Origin: an uncultured Draconibacterium sp.
GTDB lineage: Bacteria > Bacteroidota > Bacteroidia > Bacteroidales > Prolixibacteraceae
Length of the DNA stretch: 64,000 nucleotides
Direction of reading: 5' to 3'
Assembly: GCF_913060805.1 (NCBI RefSeq)
Contig: NZ_CAJXTC010000027.1
Location: 1-64,000, forward strand
In this document: piece by piece, positions 1 through 14,800 of the stretch
How positions within the stretch are numbered: the first letter of the stretch is position 1
Layout of the letters: each line of letters opens with the position of its first letter
Notes under the pieces: generated by a model
The model's input: only the letters and a program-made list of their open reading frames with translations
Told to the model about the DNA's origin: nothing
Database searches by the model: none
Program-made: the position numbers and the translations under genes

Positions 1-57
1 CGTCCGCGGCACTGTAGCACAGTAATTCCTGTTATTGCGAGCGTAGCGAAGCAATCT
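1..57. repeat. Right-end fragment of the E palindromic element
   Basis: Positions 31-57 match the right arm (GTCATTGCGAGC...GAAGCAATCT) of the composite palindromic element that recurs at 9.8-15.5 kb. The first bases (GTCCGC at 2-7) may be the end of its central hairpin. The rest lies outside the window. Confidence 0.6.
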
Positions 58-62
58 GTTAT

Positions 63-215
63 CCACCACCCCACCGCCGTAAACGCGGTCCTCCCCTCCT
101 GGCAGGAGGGGAAACTTCATGCTATATCAACTAACCATTTCCTACTCAACCACTGGCTCCATTTCTCCTCCTCTCAGGAGGAGTACTCCCGATCGAATCG
201 GGAGGGAGGTGGTGG
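63..215. repeat. MITE-like palindromic repeat, family R, copy 1
   Basis: It begins CCACCACC and ends GGTGGTGG, giving inverted ends. Inside are a hairpin of CCCCTCC and GGAGGGG near 92-112 and one of CTCCTCC and GGAGGAG near 168-183. A CCCGAT...ATCGGG palindrome sits near the right end. Related copies lie at 15545 and 17405. No reading frame with gene-like character is inside. Positions 216-340 hold nothing I can recognise. Confidence 0.75.
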
Positions 216-340
216 TTGCCCTGCTACATAACATATTGATAACCAAATCCATTTTCCATAATTTTATAAGCGTTAAAAACCAAAACACGGTTAACCCAGA
301 GCCCTCTGAAATTACCGTAACATTTTAACACCTACTGACC

Positions 341-6905: not shown

Positions 6906-8615
6906 ATGAAAGATCAGATTTACCCAAAAGTACGGAAGCAAACCGGCAGCGATCAGCTAAAATTTCGCCGCTGGTCGACCGGGATGAAGCTTATTTCCTG
7001 GCTATTGATCGTGTGTATGCTGAACCTGTTTTCGGGCTGCATGAACTATTTCAAGGTTAAAAAAGCCAGTGGTTCGGTGGTCGAGAATATCGACACTTAT
7101 ACCAGTCAGCAAAAAACCATTGTGCTTCATTACGGCGATGATGCCTGGGTACTCGGCGCCATCGACCTAAAGACAGACACACTTAAAGCAGCTACCTACG
7201 AGGAGTATGTTCTTACTGTTCAAAACCCGGTAAAACCCGACAAAGCCAACCGCTACCGCACAAAAACGCCTAACGAAAGTGCCGTATTAAACGAAGTGCA
7301 TATTTATACCACCGATGTAAACCGCTATGAAGGCACCCTAAAAGTAGCCGTTCCTTTAGACCGGATTGAGAAAATTGAGGTGTACGAAAAAGACAAGGCT
7401 GCCACAACCGGATCGTGGGTACTTGGAACCCTGGGTGCCACAGCCGGAGCATTTCTTTTGCTGGCGGTTATTGTTGCGCTCGTAAAATCGTCGTGTCCGT
7501 TTATTTATACCTGGGATGGCGAACAGTATACGCTGGCCGGAGAAATCTACAGCGGGAGCATTCAGCCGCAACTCGAAAGGCACGACTTTTTAAAACTGCC
7601 GGTTTACAGGAATCAGAACAACACCTATCAGTTAAAAATTGCCAACGAGGTAAAAGAAATTCAGCATACCAATCTTATGGAGCTATGGGTTTTTGATCAT
7701 TCCTCCGATCTGAATATCTGGGTGGATAAATACGGGAAATATCATACGGCTGAGCAGCTTTTATCGCCCGTGTCGGCCACCGGTTTCGATGGAACTGATC
7801 TCTCTGCCCTGATTGCCGAAACCGACAGCTTGTTTTTTACCGGCCGCATTGGCAATGAGGAATTACCGCTCACCGATGGAATGATACTGGAATTTCCGAA
7901 ACCGGAGAATGCCACCACTGCGAAAGTAATGATAAGGGCGAAGAACTCGTTTGTGCTCGATTATATGATCAACCAGTTTTACGATCAGTTTGGCGACCTG
8001 TACAAACGATGGAGCAGGAAGCAGCAGAAAGCTCCTGAAGAGCAGCTGCGGCAATGGACGGCCGACCAGAACATTCCGTTAAGCTTATCGGTAGAGCGAA
8101 ACGGCGAATGGGAGACGGTGGATTATTACAACGTGATCGGCCCGATGGCATTTAAGGAAGACATTCTTTCGTTTCCGTTAACCGGAACAGAAAGCAACCC
8201 GGTAAAAATTAAACTCGAAGCGGGAAACTTTTTCTGGGACATCGATTATGTGGGAATCGATTATTCTGCCGACCGCGAGCTGGACTACACCGTTGTATCG
8301 GCAACATCGGCTGTCGATCAGTCGGGGAAAGACATTAAAAAGAAAATACTGGCCGACGATGGCCGCTATTACGATCAGCCCAAAGTGGGCAACTATGCGA
8401 AGCTAAGTTTCGATCTTCCCGCAAATTTGGAAGAATCGCGTTCCGTTTTTCTGCACAGCAAAGGCTGGTACCATATCCTGCGCGATACCGAGGGCACTCC
8501 GGATATCGAATACTTACAAACATTCAGAGAGCCCGGGCGTTTCAACCTTTTTGTGAATGAATACATGCAGCAAATGGTGGAGCTTCAGAACAAGAACCTG
8601 GTTCCTAAACAATAA
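6906..8615 (+). CDS. Large lipoprotein with membrane segment, unknown function
   Basis: A 569-aa protein with a lipoprotein signal (MKLISWLLIVCMLNLFSGC, lipobox FSGC) starting at residue 27. An alternative start at 6984 would place this signal at the N-terminus. A hydrophobic helix follows near residues 178-195 (AFLLLAVIVALVK), directly before CPFIYTWDGEQYTLAGEIY. This pattern recurs in Bacteroidota hypothetical proteins. The remainder looks like beta-rich periplasmic domains. It lies between the barrel gene (10 nt upstream) and the radical SAM gene (11 nt downstream). Its role is unknown; co-occurrence suggests an envelope module with those two. Confidence 0.6.
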   Translation: MKDQIYPKVRKQTGSDQLKFRRWSTGMKLISWLLIVCMLNLFSGCMNYFKVKKASGSVVENIDTYTSQQKTIVLHYGDDAWVLGAIDLKTDTLKAATYEEYVLTVQNPVKPDKANRYRTKTPNESAVLNEVHIYTTDVNRYEGTLKVAVPLDRIEKIEVYEKDKAATTGSWVLGTLGATAGAFLLLAVIVALVKSSCPFIYTWDGEQYTLAGEIYSGSIQPQLERHDFLKLPVYRNQNNTYQLKIANEVKEIQHTNLMELWVFDHSSDLNIWVDKYGKYHTAEQLLSPVSATGFDGTDLSALIAETDSLFFTGRIGNEELPLTDGMILEFPKPENATTAKVMIRAKNSFVLDYMINQFYDQFGDLYKRWSRKQQKAPEEQLRQWTADQNIPLSLSVERNGEWETVDYYNVIGPMAFKEDILSFPLTGTESNPVKIKLEAGNFFWDIDYVGIDYSADRELDYTVVSATSAVDQSGKDIKKKILADDGRYYDQPKVGNYAKLSFDLPANLEESRSVFLHSKGWYHILRDTEGTPDIEYLQTFREPGRFNLFVNEYMQQMVELQNKNLVPKQ

Positions 8616-9863: not shown

Positions 9864-10200
9864 AGGGATTACTTCGGTCGTTCCTCCCTCGCAATAACAA
9901 AACTTGAATATTAAACTGGCAGCGGACAATGACTTAATTCATTCTGGCACAATTGTCGCCTGTCCGCTGCCCAATATTCTAACGCATTTGTCATTGCGAG
10001 CCGACGTAGGAGGTGAAGCAATCTAAAACTTAATACGGATTAACGAGAGATTACTTCGGTCGTCCCTCCCTCGTAATGACAAATCTTGAATAAAAAGAAA
10101 GCAGCGGACAATGAACTCATTCATCCCGACACGATTGTCGCCTGTCCGCTGCCCAATACGTCGCAATACGATGGTCATTGCGAGCGTAGCGAAGCAATCT
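9864..10200. repeat. E-element doublet D1 (two composite palindromes)
   Basis: Two elements, 9864-10024 and 10048-10200. Each has a left arm (AGATTACTTCGGTC...TCGTAATGAC), a central hairpin (GGCAGCGGACA...TGTCCGCTGCC, at 9918-9972 and 10101-10154) and a right arm (GTCATTGCGAG...GAAGCAATCT). The right arm is complementary to the left arm, so the whole element is an inverted repeat with a hairpin inside. The second right arm ends on the stop codon of the GIY-YIG gene. Bases 9829-9860 hold short repeats of GTCATTGGT. Confidence 0.9.
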
Positions 10201-10489
10201 AATTCTTAAGCATTAAATCTTTCCATTCAGGATTGCGGCTATTTATTAGGTCAATCTTCTTCTGGCGAGAACCGGCTTTTATTTGTTTCTCGCGAGCAAT
10301 AGCATCAGTTATGTCCTGAAATAATTCGTAATAAACCAATTTGTTTATCCGGTATTTCGAGGTAAAAGAGTTCTTGAAAAAACCGCTTTTATGTTGCTGC
10401 ATTCGCTGTGTTAGATCGCTGGTTATCCCCACATAAAGCACTGAATTACCTGCATTTGATAAGATATAAACGTAAGATTCCTTTTTCAT
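10199..10489 (-). CDS. GIY-YIG nuclease, YhbQ/UPF0213-like, copy 1
   Basis: A 96-aa single-domain GIY-YIG protein. YVYIL near residues 6-10 and YVGIT at 19-23 are the GIY and YIG elements. The catalytic Arg is in DLTQR, and the C-terminal part has the AIAREKQIKAGSRQKKIDLI pattern of the YhbQ-like class. Such proteins hydrolyse DNA phosphodiesters; the cellular role of the class is poorly known. It shares about 87 of 96 residues with the copy at 12724, and the last 31 residues are identical. Its TAG stop lies inside the right arm of the preceding palindrome, and further palindromes follow its start. It looks like part of a mobile or amplifying unit (inference). Confidence 0.9.
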   Translation of the reverse strand: MKKESYVYILSNAGNSVLYVGITSDLTQRMQQHKSGFFKNSFTSKYRINKLVYYELFQDITDAIAREKQIKAGSRQKKIDLINSRNPEWKDLMLKN

Positions 10490-10574
10490 GTCTTGGGAAT
10501 TTCATGTAAAGTTATGAATTGATTGCTTCGGTCACAAATCCTCAGCTCCTCGTTTGTAACAATGGGTGGAAAAG

Positions 10575-10918
10575 AGATTGCTTCGGTCGCTTTACTCCCT
10601 CGCAATGACAATCATTAGCATTGTAAAGGGCAGCGGACAACAATTATCCTCATCCGGGCATGGATGTCTCCTGTCCGCTGCCCAATATTTCAACGCATTT
10701 GTCATTGCGAGCCGACGTAGAAGGTGAAGCAATCTAAAACTTATTACTATTTACCAAATGAAAAGAGATTACTTCGGTCGTCCCTCCCTCGTAATGACGA
10801 ACATACATAAAAAAAACAGCAGCGGACAATGAACTCATTCATCCGGACACGATCCTCTCCTGTCCGCTGCCCAATACGTCACAATACGACGGTCATTGCA
10901 AACGGAGCGAAGCAATCT
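10575..10918. repeat. E-element doublet D2
   Basis: Elements 10575-10735 and 10766-10918, with central hairpins at 10629-10683 and 10818-10872, are arranged as in D1 and in the same orientation. A further hairpin lies before them near 10520-10560 (GTCACAAA with TTTGTAAC). Nothing else is seen between the GIY-YIG gene and the M24 peptidase gene, whose stop is 23 nt after D2. Confidence 0.9.
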
Positions 10919-10940
10919 ATTCGTTACTGCATTCACTTAC

Positions 10941-12302
10941 TTACTCAATAGTAGACAGCGAACGTGGGATAGTCATGAGTTCGGTTTGGCGTCCATCGAT
11001 ATAACGCACGGTATCGCCATCGAAAAAGGCATCTTCTTCGAGCATAATGCGTATCTCCTTGTTCCACTCGCTGATTGTTACCGCAGCGTTTAGCTCAATG
11101 GCATAGGCGGTATTGGCATAAAGCGGGTAGTCGCCGGCCCCGGGAACGCCGTCCTGCTGGTCCCACAACCCGATGGTTGGCCCGGCAGCATGCCCGTGAA
11201 AGCCGAGAGGATGGGTATAAATACTTGCTTTTAAACCCTCGGCCTTACATTGTGCGAGCGCGGCTTTTAGTATGTCGTTACCCGATAAACCGGCTTTAAA
11301 GTTGGAGGTAAAAATATCCTGCACGCGGTTGGCGGTTTTTAAGGCGGCCTTCAGATAAGGGGGTGCCGTAGTTTCGCCCGGCTGAAGCACATAGGCATGT
11401 TGCTGCGTGTCGGTATTCAGGCGCAGGTAGGTAATGCCAAAATCGACATGTAAGAGGTCGCCCGGCAGAATAACCTGCTCGTCGGGATTTTCGGAGAAGG
11501 CCTGCAAATGATCGAACTTTTTGGTGTCGGCACGTTGAATTTCCACCGATGGATGAAACCAGGTGGTAAATCCCAGTTCGCGAATGCGGTTGCGGTACCA
11601 CCACACCACATCGTTGGTAGTGCTTACGCCCGGCTGAATTACTTTTTCGGAAAATCCTTCAGCAATGATCTGGTGCGCCATACGTACAATATTCGGGTAA
11701 ACGATCATTTCGGAGGGGGTGCGCGTTTCGAGCCACCCGATAGCCACGTTTTCGGCACTTACCACCCGCGAGCGGTAGTTGTCGGGCAGCACCTCCATCA
11801 GCTGGTCGTAAAGTGTGGATGACAGTCCGTCGGCCAGCGCAAAAGTCTCCGATTTGTTGATACCTATTTTCGCCGGATCTTTGGCGGCAATGATCTCTGA
11901 CAACGCTTTCCACTGATCGGGCTGCTCCTCTTTATTCCAAATGGTTTTAAAAGTATTGCCGGTGTCGTAGCGTGACACACCAAAGGTTTCGAGTGGCTTT
12001 CCGTCGCCCGGATCGTAAGCGATTAACATGGTGGTTCGTCGGGCCGATTGCCAGGTGGCCGGCAACAGAGTTTTTATCACCGGATCTTCGTTGTATTCGC
12101 GGGCCATCACCAGCCACATATCCACACCGGCCCGGCGCATTACTTCGGGCAATACGGTTTCTACCCGTTCTTCGAGCCAAACATCTACCACTTCGGCACG
12201 TTGTTGCATGTCGAGCGTTTTTGGGAAATACGGGTTTTGTGCAAAAGCCGGAAAACAAAAAAGAATAAACAATACTAACAGGGTGGATTTTTGGTTTGTC
12301 AT
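10941..12302 (-). CDS. Exported M24-family Xaa-Pro aminopeptidase-like protein
   Basis: A 453-aa protein with a signal peptide (LLVLFILFCFPAFAQ, residues 8-22), so it is periplasmic or secreted. The C-terminal half is the M24 pita-bread fold. It shows D287 in HVDFG, D298 in LNTDT, a His cluster in HPLGFHGH (364-371), E403 in ELNAAV and a Glu in MLEEDAFF (about 422). Together these give the usual two-metal set. The N-terminal half fits the creatinase/prolidase N-domain. It likely removes N-terminal residues before proline from peptides. The gene is monocistronic and is bracketed on both sides by near-identical repeat/GIY-YIG units. Confidence 0.85.
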   Translation of the reverse strand: MTNQKSTLLVLFILFCFPAFAQNPYFPKTLDMQQRAEVVDVWLEERVETVLPEVMRRAGVDMWLVMAREYNEDPVIKTLLPATWQSARRTTMLIAYDPGDGKPLETFGVSRYDTGNTFKTIWNKEEQPDQWKALSEIIAAKDPAKIGINKSETFALADGLSSTLYDQLMEVLPDNYRSRVVSAENVAIGWLETRTPSEMIVYPNIVRMAHQIIAEGFSEKVIQPGVSTTNDVVWWYRNRIRELGFTTWFHPSVEIQRADTKKFDHLQAFSENPDEQVILPGDLLHVDFGITYLRLNTDTQQHAYVLQPGETTAPPYLKAALKTANRVQDIFTSNFKAGLSGNDILKAALAQCKAEGLKASIYTHPLGFHGHAAGPTIGLWDQQDGVPGAGDYPLYANTAYAIELNAAVTISEWNKEIRIMLEEDAFFDGDTVRYIDGRQTELMTIPRSLSTIE

Positions 12303-12371
12303 AGGAACGGATTTATGATGATTTTACTTTTTGATTAAACAGCTTTTAAATGTAGTAAATTTTGAGGGATG

Positions 12372-12725
12372 AGATTGCTTCGGTCTCCGTCGGCTGACGG
12401 ATCTCTCGCAATGACAAAATATTTATTTTAAGAATGGCAGCGGACAATGAACTCATTCATCCGGACACGATTGTCTCCTGTCCGCTGCCCAATATCCCAA
12501 CGCATTCGTCATTGCGAGCCGACGTAGGAGGTGAAGCAATCTAAAACTTATTACTAATTACCAAATGAAAAGAGATTACTTCGGTCGTTCCTCCCTCGTA
12601 ATGACAAAACTTGAATATAAAGTTGGCAGCGGACAAAGAAAAAGTTAATCCGGGCACGACTCACTCTTGTCCGCTGCCCAGTACACTCCAATTACGCAGT
12701 CATTGCGAGCGTAGCGAAGCAATCT
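12372..12725. repeat. E-element doublet D3
   Basis: Elements 12372-12542 and 12573-12725, with central hairpins at 12436-12490 and 12625-12679. The first left arm carries a variant tip with its own hairpin (TCCGTCGGCTGACGGA). The last right arm again ends on the stop codon of a GIY-YIG gene. Confidence 0.9.
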
Positions 12726-13014
12726 AATTCTTAAGCATTAAATCTTTCCACTCAGGATTTCGGCTATTTATGAGGTCAATCTTTTTCTGCCGGGAACCGG
12801 CTTTTATTTGTTTCTCACGAGTAATAGCATCGGTTATATCCTGAAACAACTCGTAATAAACCAATTTGTTAATCCGGTATTTCGAGGTAAATGAGTTTTT
12901 GAAAAATCCGCTTCTGTGTTGTTGAATTCGCTGTGTAAGATCGCTGGTAACACCTACATAAAGCACTGATTTGGTTGTATTTGTTAAGATATAAACGTAA
13001 GCTTCTTTTTTCAT
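12724..13014 (-). CDS. GIY-YIG nuclease, YhbQ/UPF0213-like, copy 2
   Basis: A second 96-aa GIY-YIG protein with YVYIL, YVGVT, DLTQR and the REKQIKAGSRQKK tail. It differs from copy 1 at about nine positions, mostly in the first 34 residues, and all motif residues are kept, so both look functional. The stop codon is within the right arm of the upstream palindrome, as for copy 1. Flanking order is also the same: doublet, GIY-YIG gene, small hairpin, doublet. The retained protein identity against drifting spacers hints at purifying selection or recent duplication (inference). Confidence 0.9.
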   Translation of the reverse strand: MKKEAYVYILTNTTKSVLYVGVTSDLTQRIQQHRSGFFKNSFTSKYRINKLVYYELFQDITDAITREKQIKAGSRQKKIDLINSRNPEWKDLMLKN

Positions 13015-13101
13015 GATTTGGGAATTTCAGGTAAAGATATGAATAGATTGCTTTGGTCACAAGTTCCTCTCTGCACATCGTTCGTAACAAGGGTAGAAGA
13101 G

Positions 13102-13459
13102 AGATTACTTCGGTCGTTCCTCCCTCGTAATGACAAATTTGATGTTTGAGAAGGCAGCGGACAATGAACTTGTTTATCCCGGCATGATCCTCTCCTGTCC
13201 GCTGCCCAATATTCTAACGCATTTGTCATTGCGAGCCGACGTAAGAGGTGAAGCAATCTAAAACTTATTACTAATTACGAAATGAAAAGAGATTACTTCG
13301 GTCGTCCCTCCCTCGTAATGACACGAATTTATTATTGAATCGGCAGCGGACAATGAACTCTAATTCCGTCCATGATTCTTTCTTGTCCGCTGCCCCTCCT
13401 ACAAGATAGTACGCGTCATTGCGATCCCGATGAGTAAAATGAATCGGGAGAAGCAATCC
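13102..13459. repeat. E-element doublet D4
   Basis: Elements 13102-13259 and 13288-13459, with central hairpins at 13153-13207 and 13342-13395. The final right arm has a replaced tip: CCCGATGAG...GAATCGGG takes the place of the usual CGTAGC or CGACGTAGGAGG tip. A small hairpin (GGTCACAA...TCGTAACAA type) lies at about 13054-13090. Confidence 0.9.
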
Positions 13460-13478
13460 AACCGTTTAAAGACATTGC

Positions 13479-14561: not shown

Positions 14562-14745
14562 AGATTGCTTCGGTCTCCGTCGGCTGACGGATCCCTCGCA
14601 ATGACAGGATGTGAATATTTAGAATAGCAGCGGACATCAAACACATTCATCCCGGCACGATTCTCTCCTGTCCGCTGCCCAAATATCCCAACACCGTAGT
14701 CATTGCGATACCGATCCAGTTTTCTGGCATCGGGAGAAGCAATCT
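14562..14745. repeat. Single E element (E9)
   Basis: The left arm at 14562 carries the CCGTCGGCTGACGG tip. The central hairpin is GCAGCGGACA...TGTCCGCTGCCC at 14627-14680. The right arm at 14699-14745 has a CCGATCCAG...CATCGG tip. It lies between the tocopherol-cyclase-like gene and the CIA30 gene. Confidence 0.85.
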
Positions 14746-14800
14746 AACTTACCCCTCGTTGCAAAAGAGGGGTATAATGTATTCCGATTGTCAGCTGCTC

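Follow-up and report, generated by a model that had tools for sequence, protein, structure and literature searches.

The window analysed here, positions 1 to 64,000 of contig NZ_CAJXTC010000027.1 of an uncultured Draconibacterium sp. (assembly GCF_913060805.1), carries two copies of a small GIY-YIG nuclease gene set among large palindromic repeats, and the question it raises is whether the enzyme and the repeats belong together. An earlier sequence-only reading had likened the arrangement to repetitive extragenic palindromes (REPs) and their Y1 transposases, the REP-associated tyrosine transposases (RAYTs), with the inner hairpin of the repeats as the nuclease's partner. The idea is right in kind and holds more widely than supposed, as an association across phyla with filled and empty sites, but it concerns the outer repeat, which carries a GTC tag. 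With a probability of roughly 0.6, the single-domain GIY-YIG subfamily represents the dedicated partner of GTC- or CGTC-tagged REPs and the processing enzyme of a transposon-like unit. By analogy, the nuclease most likely does for its REPs what the Y1 transposase RAYT does for REPs tagged with GTAG.

Both window genes lie on the minus strand, code for 96 amino acids (aa) and are 91% identical. The shared architecture and its order of doublet, gene, small hairpin and doublet are as first described, and the stop codon TAG does fall in the terminal AATCTA of a palindrome (10199-10201 and 12724-12726). The repeat unit is about 150-185 bp long and consists of an outer arm AGATTRCTTCGG..CTCGYAATGAC, a 52-nt inner hairpin GCAGCGGACA..TGTCCGCTGC and an inverted outer arm GTCATTGCGAG..GAAGCAATCT. 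There are nine such units in the window, eight of them around the two genes, and in 9/9 the GTC ends face each other head to head. Both genes lie between REP-like hairpins with the GTC tag (GTCATTGCGAG..GAAGCAATCT), and, by eye, the small hairpin upstream of each is an outer repeat that has decayed (Table 1). Homology between the two gene-bearing modules, of about 1.06 kb, extends over their full length, up to and including the outermost REP on each side, and the flanks are unrelated; the modules were therefore duplicated as units bounded by the outer arms.

The inner motif GGCAGCGGACA (at most one mismatch) occurs 18 times in the window, where 0.59 copies are expected and 18 was reached in 0/100 shuffles; the copies form nine arm pairs, eight in 9918-13394 and one at 14626-14679. 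The window's own genome (5.48 Mb) holds 18 perfect inner hairpins, nine of them in the window, and the outer-repeat pattern GTCATTGCGAN{4,30}GCAATC matches it at 33 places. An outer arm on both sides was found in 15 of the 16 inner hairpins inspected (copies on contigs C33 and C55 were left out), and on the right side only in the remaining one. Hairpins beside subfamily genes, expected by the sequence-only reading, were found across phyla; where homologous loci were read, the partner is not GGCAGCGGACA but the outer repeat with its GTC tag, which comes in several sequence types. The inner hairpin was rejected as a general partner on reading these flanks; other genomes were not searched for GGCAGCGGACA.

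A profile of the subfamily was run against a one-genome-per-species collection, and hairpins were called by a detector demanding GTC and then an AT-starting hairpin of 5 bp, at most 250 bp from the gene. Among the best 80 loci, which come from many phyla and are best matches to a profile built partly from repeat-flanked genes, 68 subfamily genes have such a hairpin, compared with 62/544 other open reading frames (ORFs) of the same loci (Fisher about 1e-41), and 42/80 compared with 1/544 have hairpins on both sides (Fisher about 1e-41). This contrast is partly one of intergenic against coding surroundings, and to that extent weakens the case, because the control ORFs are mechanical and many have coding flanks. 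A fairer control is the sibling clade of small GIY-YIG genes (that of L001; L and G numbers are handles of loci and genomes), of equal size and sampled in the window's order only, where 2/30 loci are positive, one of the two among tRNA genes. In the window's order 16/27 subfamily loci are positive (27 of the 29 loci L033-L061 kept, with a match of at least 200 nt). In Alphaproteobacteria, with the detector fixed beforehand, 22/30 are positive, 13 on both sides, and a phylum sample with the paralog L005 as query gave 25/30 within 250 bp and 26/30 at 300 bp. A protein tree of 233 of the 241 unique proteins has the repeat in 158/203 members outside the sibling clade and 1/30 inside. Repeats per kb, near and far from the gene, are 3.3 and 0.37 in Alphaproteobacteria, 5.6 and 0.34 in the L005 set, and 0.30 and 0.12 in the sibling clade.

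With the real tag the looser A-start setting gave 70/80 and the AT-start setting 68/80, AT being demanded by the detector itself; eight permuted tags gave 0 to 17 of 80 with the AT-start detector and 5 to 25 of 80 with the A-start one. In 94/147 of the nearest repeats not more than 40 bp from the gene, GTC is directed away from it (p=0.0009), as expected for the ends of a unit, though head-to-head pairing blurs the signal. A functionless pairing, in which REPs and small genes merely gather in the same tolerant intergenic regions, would agree with the mostly intergenic position of REPs (PMC3733652, accessible part); it is made very improbable by the permuted tags, the two-sided flanking and the sibling clade. 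Two simpler searches were dropped. A strict detector (GTCAT and six perfect pairs) called 15/80 loci and was replaced by five pairs with controls because the ATTGC/GCAAT stem has 5 pairs; with the ATTGC motif alone most order relatives seemed free of repeats, and reading 12 flanks revealed other repeat types.

Among records of a plasmid collection, 34 have a relative of the gene, and CGTC or TGTC palindromes lie beside it in 7/8 inspected: Neisseria gonorrhoeae (two records, chromosome-sized), Azospirillum lipoferum, Sinorhizobium meliloti, Novosphingobium aromaticivorans, Rhizobium sp. CIAT894 and Planktothrix agardhii. The Rhizobium tumorigenes record has no CGTC or TGTC palindrome beside the gene. 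In the two N. gonorrhoeae records the gene stands amid 16 and 11 ATTCCC-N8-GGGAAT repeats within 3.3 kb, and in N. aromaticivorans the palindrome starts with GTCGCC and was noticed by eye, not by the detector. N. gonorrhoeae, A. lipoferum, S. meliloti and N. aromaticivorans are species or groups named in the accessible part of the 2013 description of CGTC-tagged REPs (PMC3733652). On P. agardhii plasmid p1 (L341) the gene, with TGTCATTCTGAG repeats, is located between an MmeI-type restriction gene and DISARM drmA.

The repeat type goes with the gene lineage. Proteins less than 40% identical share a repeat type in 0-3% of pairs, those 55-60% identical in 50%, and those above 80% in 80% (25 pairs). 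Nearest-neighbour proteins agree in 82/162 cases, compared with 38.6 in shuffled data (maximum 54), and neighbours below 60% identity in 63, compared with 38.6 (maximum 53). For types other than ATTGC the nearest neighbours agree in 22/87, compared with 7.3 (maximum 17). Of the chosen gene-bearing genomes, 35/36 have ATTGC repeats, in 3 to 574 copies with gene-adjacent ones counted; the one without them, L135, carries a repeat of ATTCCC type next to the gene. The highest number is from G380 (Pumilibacter intestinalis, L100), with 574 ATTGC pattern matches in 2.3 Mb, often in mixed arrays. ATTTC repeats number 162 in G101 and 29 in G027, where the genes have ATTTC neighbours and neither genome shows an ATTGC match; the window's own genome has 59, and its paralog L005 has an ATTTC neighbour. 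The alphaproteobacterium G504 encodes ten gene copies, six with repeats of differing types and four with none by the detector. In counts over 149 genomes of the window's order, with phylogeny ignored, a strong gene match (E<=1e-12) was present in 13/20 genomes with at least two ATTGC repeats and in 17/129 others (p=2e-6); at E<=1e-3 the numbers are 16/20 and 51/129 (p=0.001).

The simplest form of the unit is that of Chryseobacterium, a GTC-REP, the gene and a REP-GAC, 397 bp long in L064 and 393 bp in L065. Its two ends are identical at 31/33 nt in L064 and in L267. The comparison of close relatives that had been proposed revealed both filled and empty sites. At site 1 (L267-L336), between a barnase-type ribonuclease gene (PF00545) and a barstar gene (PF01337), the unit is found repeatedly; it is present in L062, L065 and L072 and absent in C. 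gilvum L064. At site 2 it is present in L064, and C. oranimense has no GIY-YIG unit there. In a second pair, L082 is filled and L114 empty; in L082 at about 8300-8520 the 3' end of the gene and its REP form a tandem repeat, by eye. Gain or loss affects the entire unit, and, as in a transposon with terminal inverted repeats, orthologous sites occur filled and empty and the REPs lie at the very ends. Phage cargo was considered and rejected: one viral scan confirmed 10 relatives, their flanks unread, and the unit looks like a chromosomal element.

Of 172 genomes that have the ribonuclease gene, the 70 with the highest scores were surveyed at site 1. The unit is intact in 21 of them and broken in 10; another 8 have a solo palindrome, 10 show a one-end remnant, and 21 are without any trace. 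L299, with both REPs kept and most of the gene deleted, was reassigned by eye from solo to broken. The 8 solo palindromes are tagged at both ends, L315 among them being degenerate; the 10 one-end remnants are doubtful, and some, e.g. L283 and L317, are perhaps chance. Solo palindromes at former units are compatible with a deletion whose endpoints are direct repeats shared by the two REPs, either ATTGC or GCAAT. At many traceless sites the ribonuclease gene is followed by a 212-codon open frame (read in L271); in L271 this frame has HELGHTQGLKHC and is metalloprotease-like by eye.

The gene could also be a homing-type passenger, its nuclease targeting REPs that spread by other means, while recombination and the repair of breaks carry the gene into them or from one to another. 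Homing genes of the free-standing GIY-YIG sort are well established, and because REP-gene-REP would be copied whenever a break between REPs is repaired, such a passenger accounts for the gene's position between REPs, the type coupling, the duplicated modules and the tandem copies; REP-rich genomes without the gene or a strong gene (G066, G143) agree with it too. It is nevertheless unlikely: the REPs are at the very ends of the unit, and at 21/70 site 1 loci the first 90 nt are free of REPs, which would suit a joint arrival of unit and REPs, the ancestral state being unproved. At site 2 of C. oranimense the flanks are about 0.9 kb apart and enclose an IS200-like Y1_Tnp ORF (PF01797; L065 about 1-335, reverse strand, and L345), which would suit Y1 transposases, RAYT-like or IS200-like, moving the CGTC REPs in trans with the GIY-YIG gene as cargo. 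Di Nocera et al., in the accessible part of their paper (PMC3733652), found no gene for a tyrosine transposase with CGTC repeats on its flanks, which leaves this explanation with hardly any probability; Y1 genes were not surveyed here.

The window proteins match PF01541 with 59.8 and 59.0 bits (curated cut-off 22.6), and Pfam gives GIY-YIG families only, with no Y1 match. Signature residues Y8, Y19, G21, R29, H33 and E67 are invariant in 21 and in 40 sequences. The predicted structure is a bare GIY-YIG domain (mean predicted local distance difference test score, pLDDT, 94), to which UPF0213 protein BH0048 (1zg2) and then Slx1 are the nearest solved folds, E<=0.001 being reached by BH0048 only. 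Genes of intact units have a median ratio of nonsynonymous to synonymous substitution rates (dN/dS) of 0.07 (19 of the 21 intact ORFs; 116 usable of 171 pairs) and are under strong purifying selection; for the window gene pair dN is 0.045 and dS 0.56. Such selection, the fold near Slx1, which is a nuclease of branched DNA, and an SOS box at one Caulobacter crescentus COG2827 gene (PMC1839093, accessible part) would agree with a host enzyme for the trimming or resolution of hairpins and cruciforms in REP-rich DNA, kept in the vicinity of REPs by recombination between repeats. Patchy presence, frequent loss and decay at one site, up to ten diverged copies in one genome, and repeats at both immediate gene ends are unexpected for a housekeeping gene, and this explanation is quite improbable.

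For the preferred reading, in which the nuclease serves its own GTC-tagged REPs, the following course is proposed. In the simplest unit of about 400 bp, the GTC-REP and the inverted REP-GAC on either side of the gene would act as terminal inverted repeats. Where REPs are extruded as hairpins or cruciforms, the nuclease would cut them close to the GTC tag, after which host repair would copy or move the unit and, in trans, gene-less REP pairs. Gene-less pairs, such as the window's units of about 160 bp, and solo REPs would be non-autonomous progeny, as miniature inverted-repeat transposable elements (MITEs) are to insertion sequences. What the data show directly is the association, its subfamily specificity and a discrete unit with REPs at its ends; we infer cleavage of the REPs, the site of the cut, the copying step and the nuclease as cause of the spread.

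Several points weigh against this reading. Neither cutting nor transposition was observed, and a nuclease that works by hydrolysis does not itself bring the chemistry for strand transfer. The 5-bp direct repeats ATTGC/GCAAT can give solo palindromes by host slippage without a nuclease; because such deletion needs none, the solo palindromes show loss and not mechanism. No target-site duplication was definable by eye at site 1 and at L082/L114, because the flanks have diverged. Both findings named beforehand as refuting the pairing occur in part. Genes without palindromes are 45/203 subfamily members with no hairpin within 250 bp by a detector that misses some visible by eye (L035, L082, L087). 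Palindromes without the gene occur in 4/20 genomes of the order with at least two ATTGC repeats and no gene match (G066 with 13 copies; G023, G034 and G053 with 2 each). Furthermore, 32 ATTTC repeats occur in G143, which has no strong gene, and 90 in G065, where none was seen next to any of the three genes; in the window's own genome the ATGCC pattern has a single match, beside paralog L002. Coupling for types other than ATTGC falls to 17/87 compared with 7.7 (maximum 18) below 80% identity, and to 9/87 compared with 7.5 below 60%, which is no clear signal.

The outer repeats resemble the CGTC-REPs. These were described in 2013 with a tag CGTC, TGTC or CCTC, a tail CCA or similar, a stem of 8-9 bp, a loop of 4-5 and mostly head-to-head pairs (PMC3733652, accessible part), and include neisserial dRS3 and rickettsial RPE-4 and RPE-6. 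The repeats beside the genes carry GTC, mostly as CGTC or TGTC, and the window outer arms have the GTC tag, a stem starting with AT, a short tail and head-to-head pairs. Stem and loop of the described lengths fit many alphaproteobacterial, Azospirillum and neisserial copies, but not the window's ATTGC type, whose perfect pairs number 5 and whose long interior is imperfect; because of this departure it is filed only broadly as CGTC-tagged. According to the same text, CGTC-tagged REPs 'apparently lack a dedicated transposase'; its text does not contain the term GIY. RAYT and a GIY-YIG gene share one clade table in the accessible part of PMC9465073, not linked to each other. The searches made of the open-access PubMed Central (PMC) literature turned up no paper stating the GIY-YIG/REP pairing.

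With the REP/RAYT system of GTAG REPs and Y1 TnpA-REP ('REPtrons') there are in common short tagged palindromes, head-to-head pairs, many gene-less copies and a single small gene of nuclease type, flanked by repeats of which further copies are scattered through the genome. Tag and enzyme differ, GTC/CGTC and a GIY-YIG protein here instead of GTAG and Y1 (GTAG itself was not searched for); the system is therefore not filed under REP/RAYT, though it may work alike. Free-standing GIY-YIG homing endonucleases are likewise small selfish GIY-YIG genes with sites present or absent, but here there are two inverted hairpin ends, many gene-less relatives and a bare domain of about 96-102 aa. UPF0213/COG2827 proteins (YhbQ, YazA, BH0048) and Slx1 are close in fold; the repeats are lacking in the sibling small GIY-YIG clade, on which, and not on YhbQ, the comparison rests. 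Bacterial MITEs and small insertion sequences share terminal inverted repeats and gene-less derivatives; the present unit differs by a GIY-YIG ORF as its only gene, by its 393-397 bp, and by the lack of a target-site duplication found.

The features of the window are listed in Table 1. An extra outer-repeat match is located at 34-57, near the contig start, with no gene in view. In the sibling clade, GIY-YIG genes were seen in tandem arrays of 2-3 copies (G024:C20, G086:C19, G119:C4, G002:C3), and the copy in L205 is inside an array of genes resembling tRNA genes, for several of which an anticodon of two bases was called.

Table 1. GIY-YIG genes and repeat units in the window
Feature	Position	Strand	Remark
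Unit 1	9867..10025	+	outer arm, inner hairpin 9918-9971, inverted outer arm; left end of module 1
Unit 2	10049..10201	+	outer arm, inner hairpin 10100-10153, inverted outer arm; terminal AATCTA contains stop of gene 1
GIY-YIG nuclease gene 1	10199..10489	-	96 aa, PF01541
Decayed outer repeat	10521..10564	+	directly upstream of gene 1; by eye, limits approximate
Unit 3	10576..10736	+	inner hairpin 10629-10682
Unit 4	10767..10919	+	inner hairpin 10818-10871; right end of module 1
Unit 5	12373..12543	+	inner hairpin 12436-12489; left end of module 2
Unit 6	12574..12726	+	inner hairpin 12625-12678; terminal AATCTA contains stop of gene 2
GIY-YIG nuclease gene 2	12724..13014	-	96 aa, 91% identity to gene 1
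Decayed outer repeat	13046..13090	+	directly upstream of gene 2; by eye, limits approximate
Unit 7	13103..13260	+	inner hairpin 13153-13206
Unit 8	13291..13460	+	inner hairpin 13342-13394; right end of module 2
Unit 9	14563..14746	+	gene-less copy, inner hairpin 14626-14679

The subfamily offers a candidate enzyme for the CGTC-tagged REPs, which occur in several phyla and were judged to be without a dedicated transposase in 2013 (PMC3733652, accessible part). The question can now be tested with one 96-aa protein and a hairpin oligonucleotide. On a wider claim the balance is even: the unit may be a new class of autonomous prokaryotic mobile element, at about 400 bp perhaps the smallest known, whose sole protein, a single-domain GIY-YIG nuclease, would cut the hairpin ends and leave propagation to host repair, and which would be the missing driver of CGTC REPs in many phyla, dRS3 included. 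If autonomous, the unit is smaller than typical insertion sequences, and a lone hydrolytic GIY-YIG nuclease would join the chemistry of prokaryotic mobile elements. Genes annotated merely as 'GIY-YIG nuclease family protein' would then have a role.

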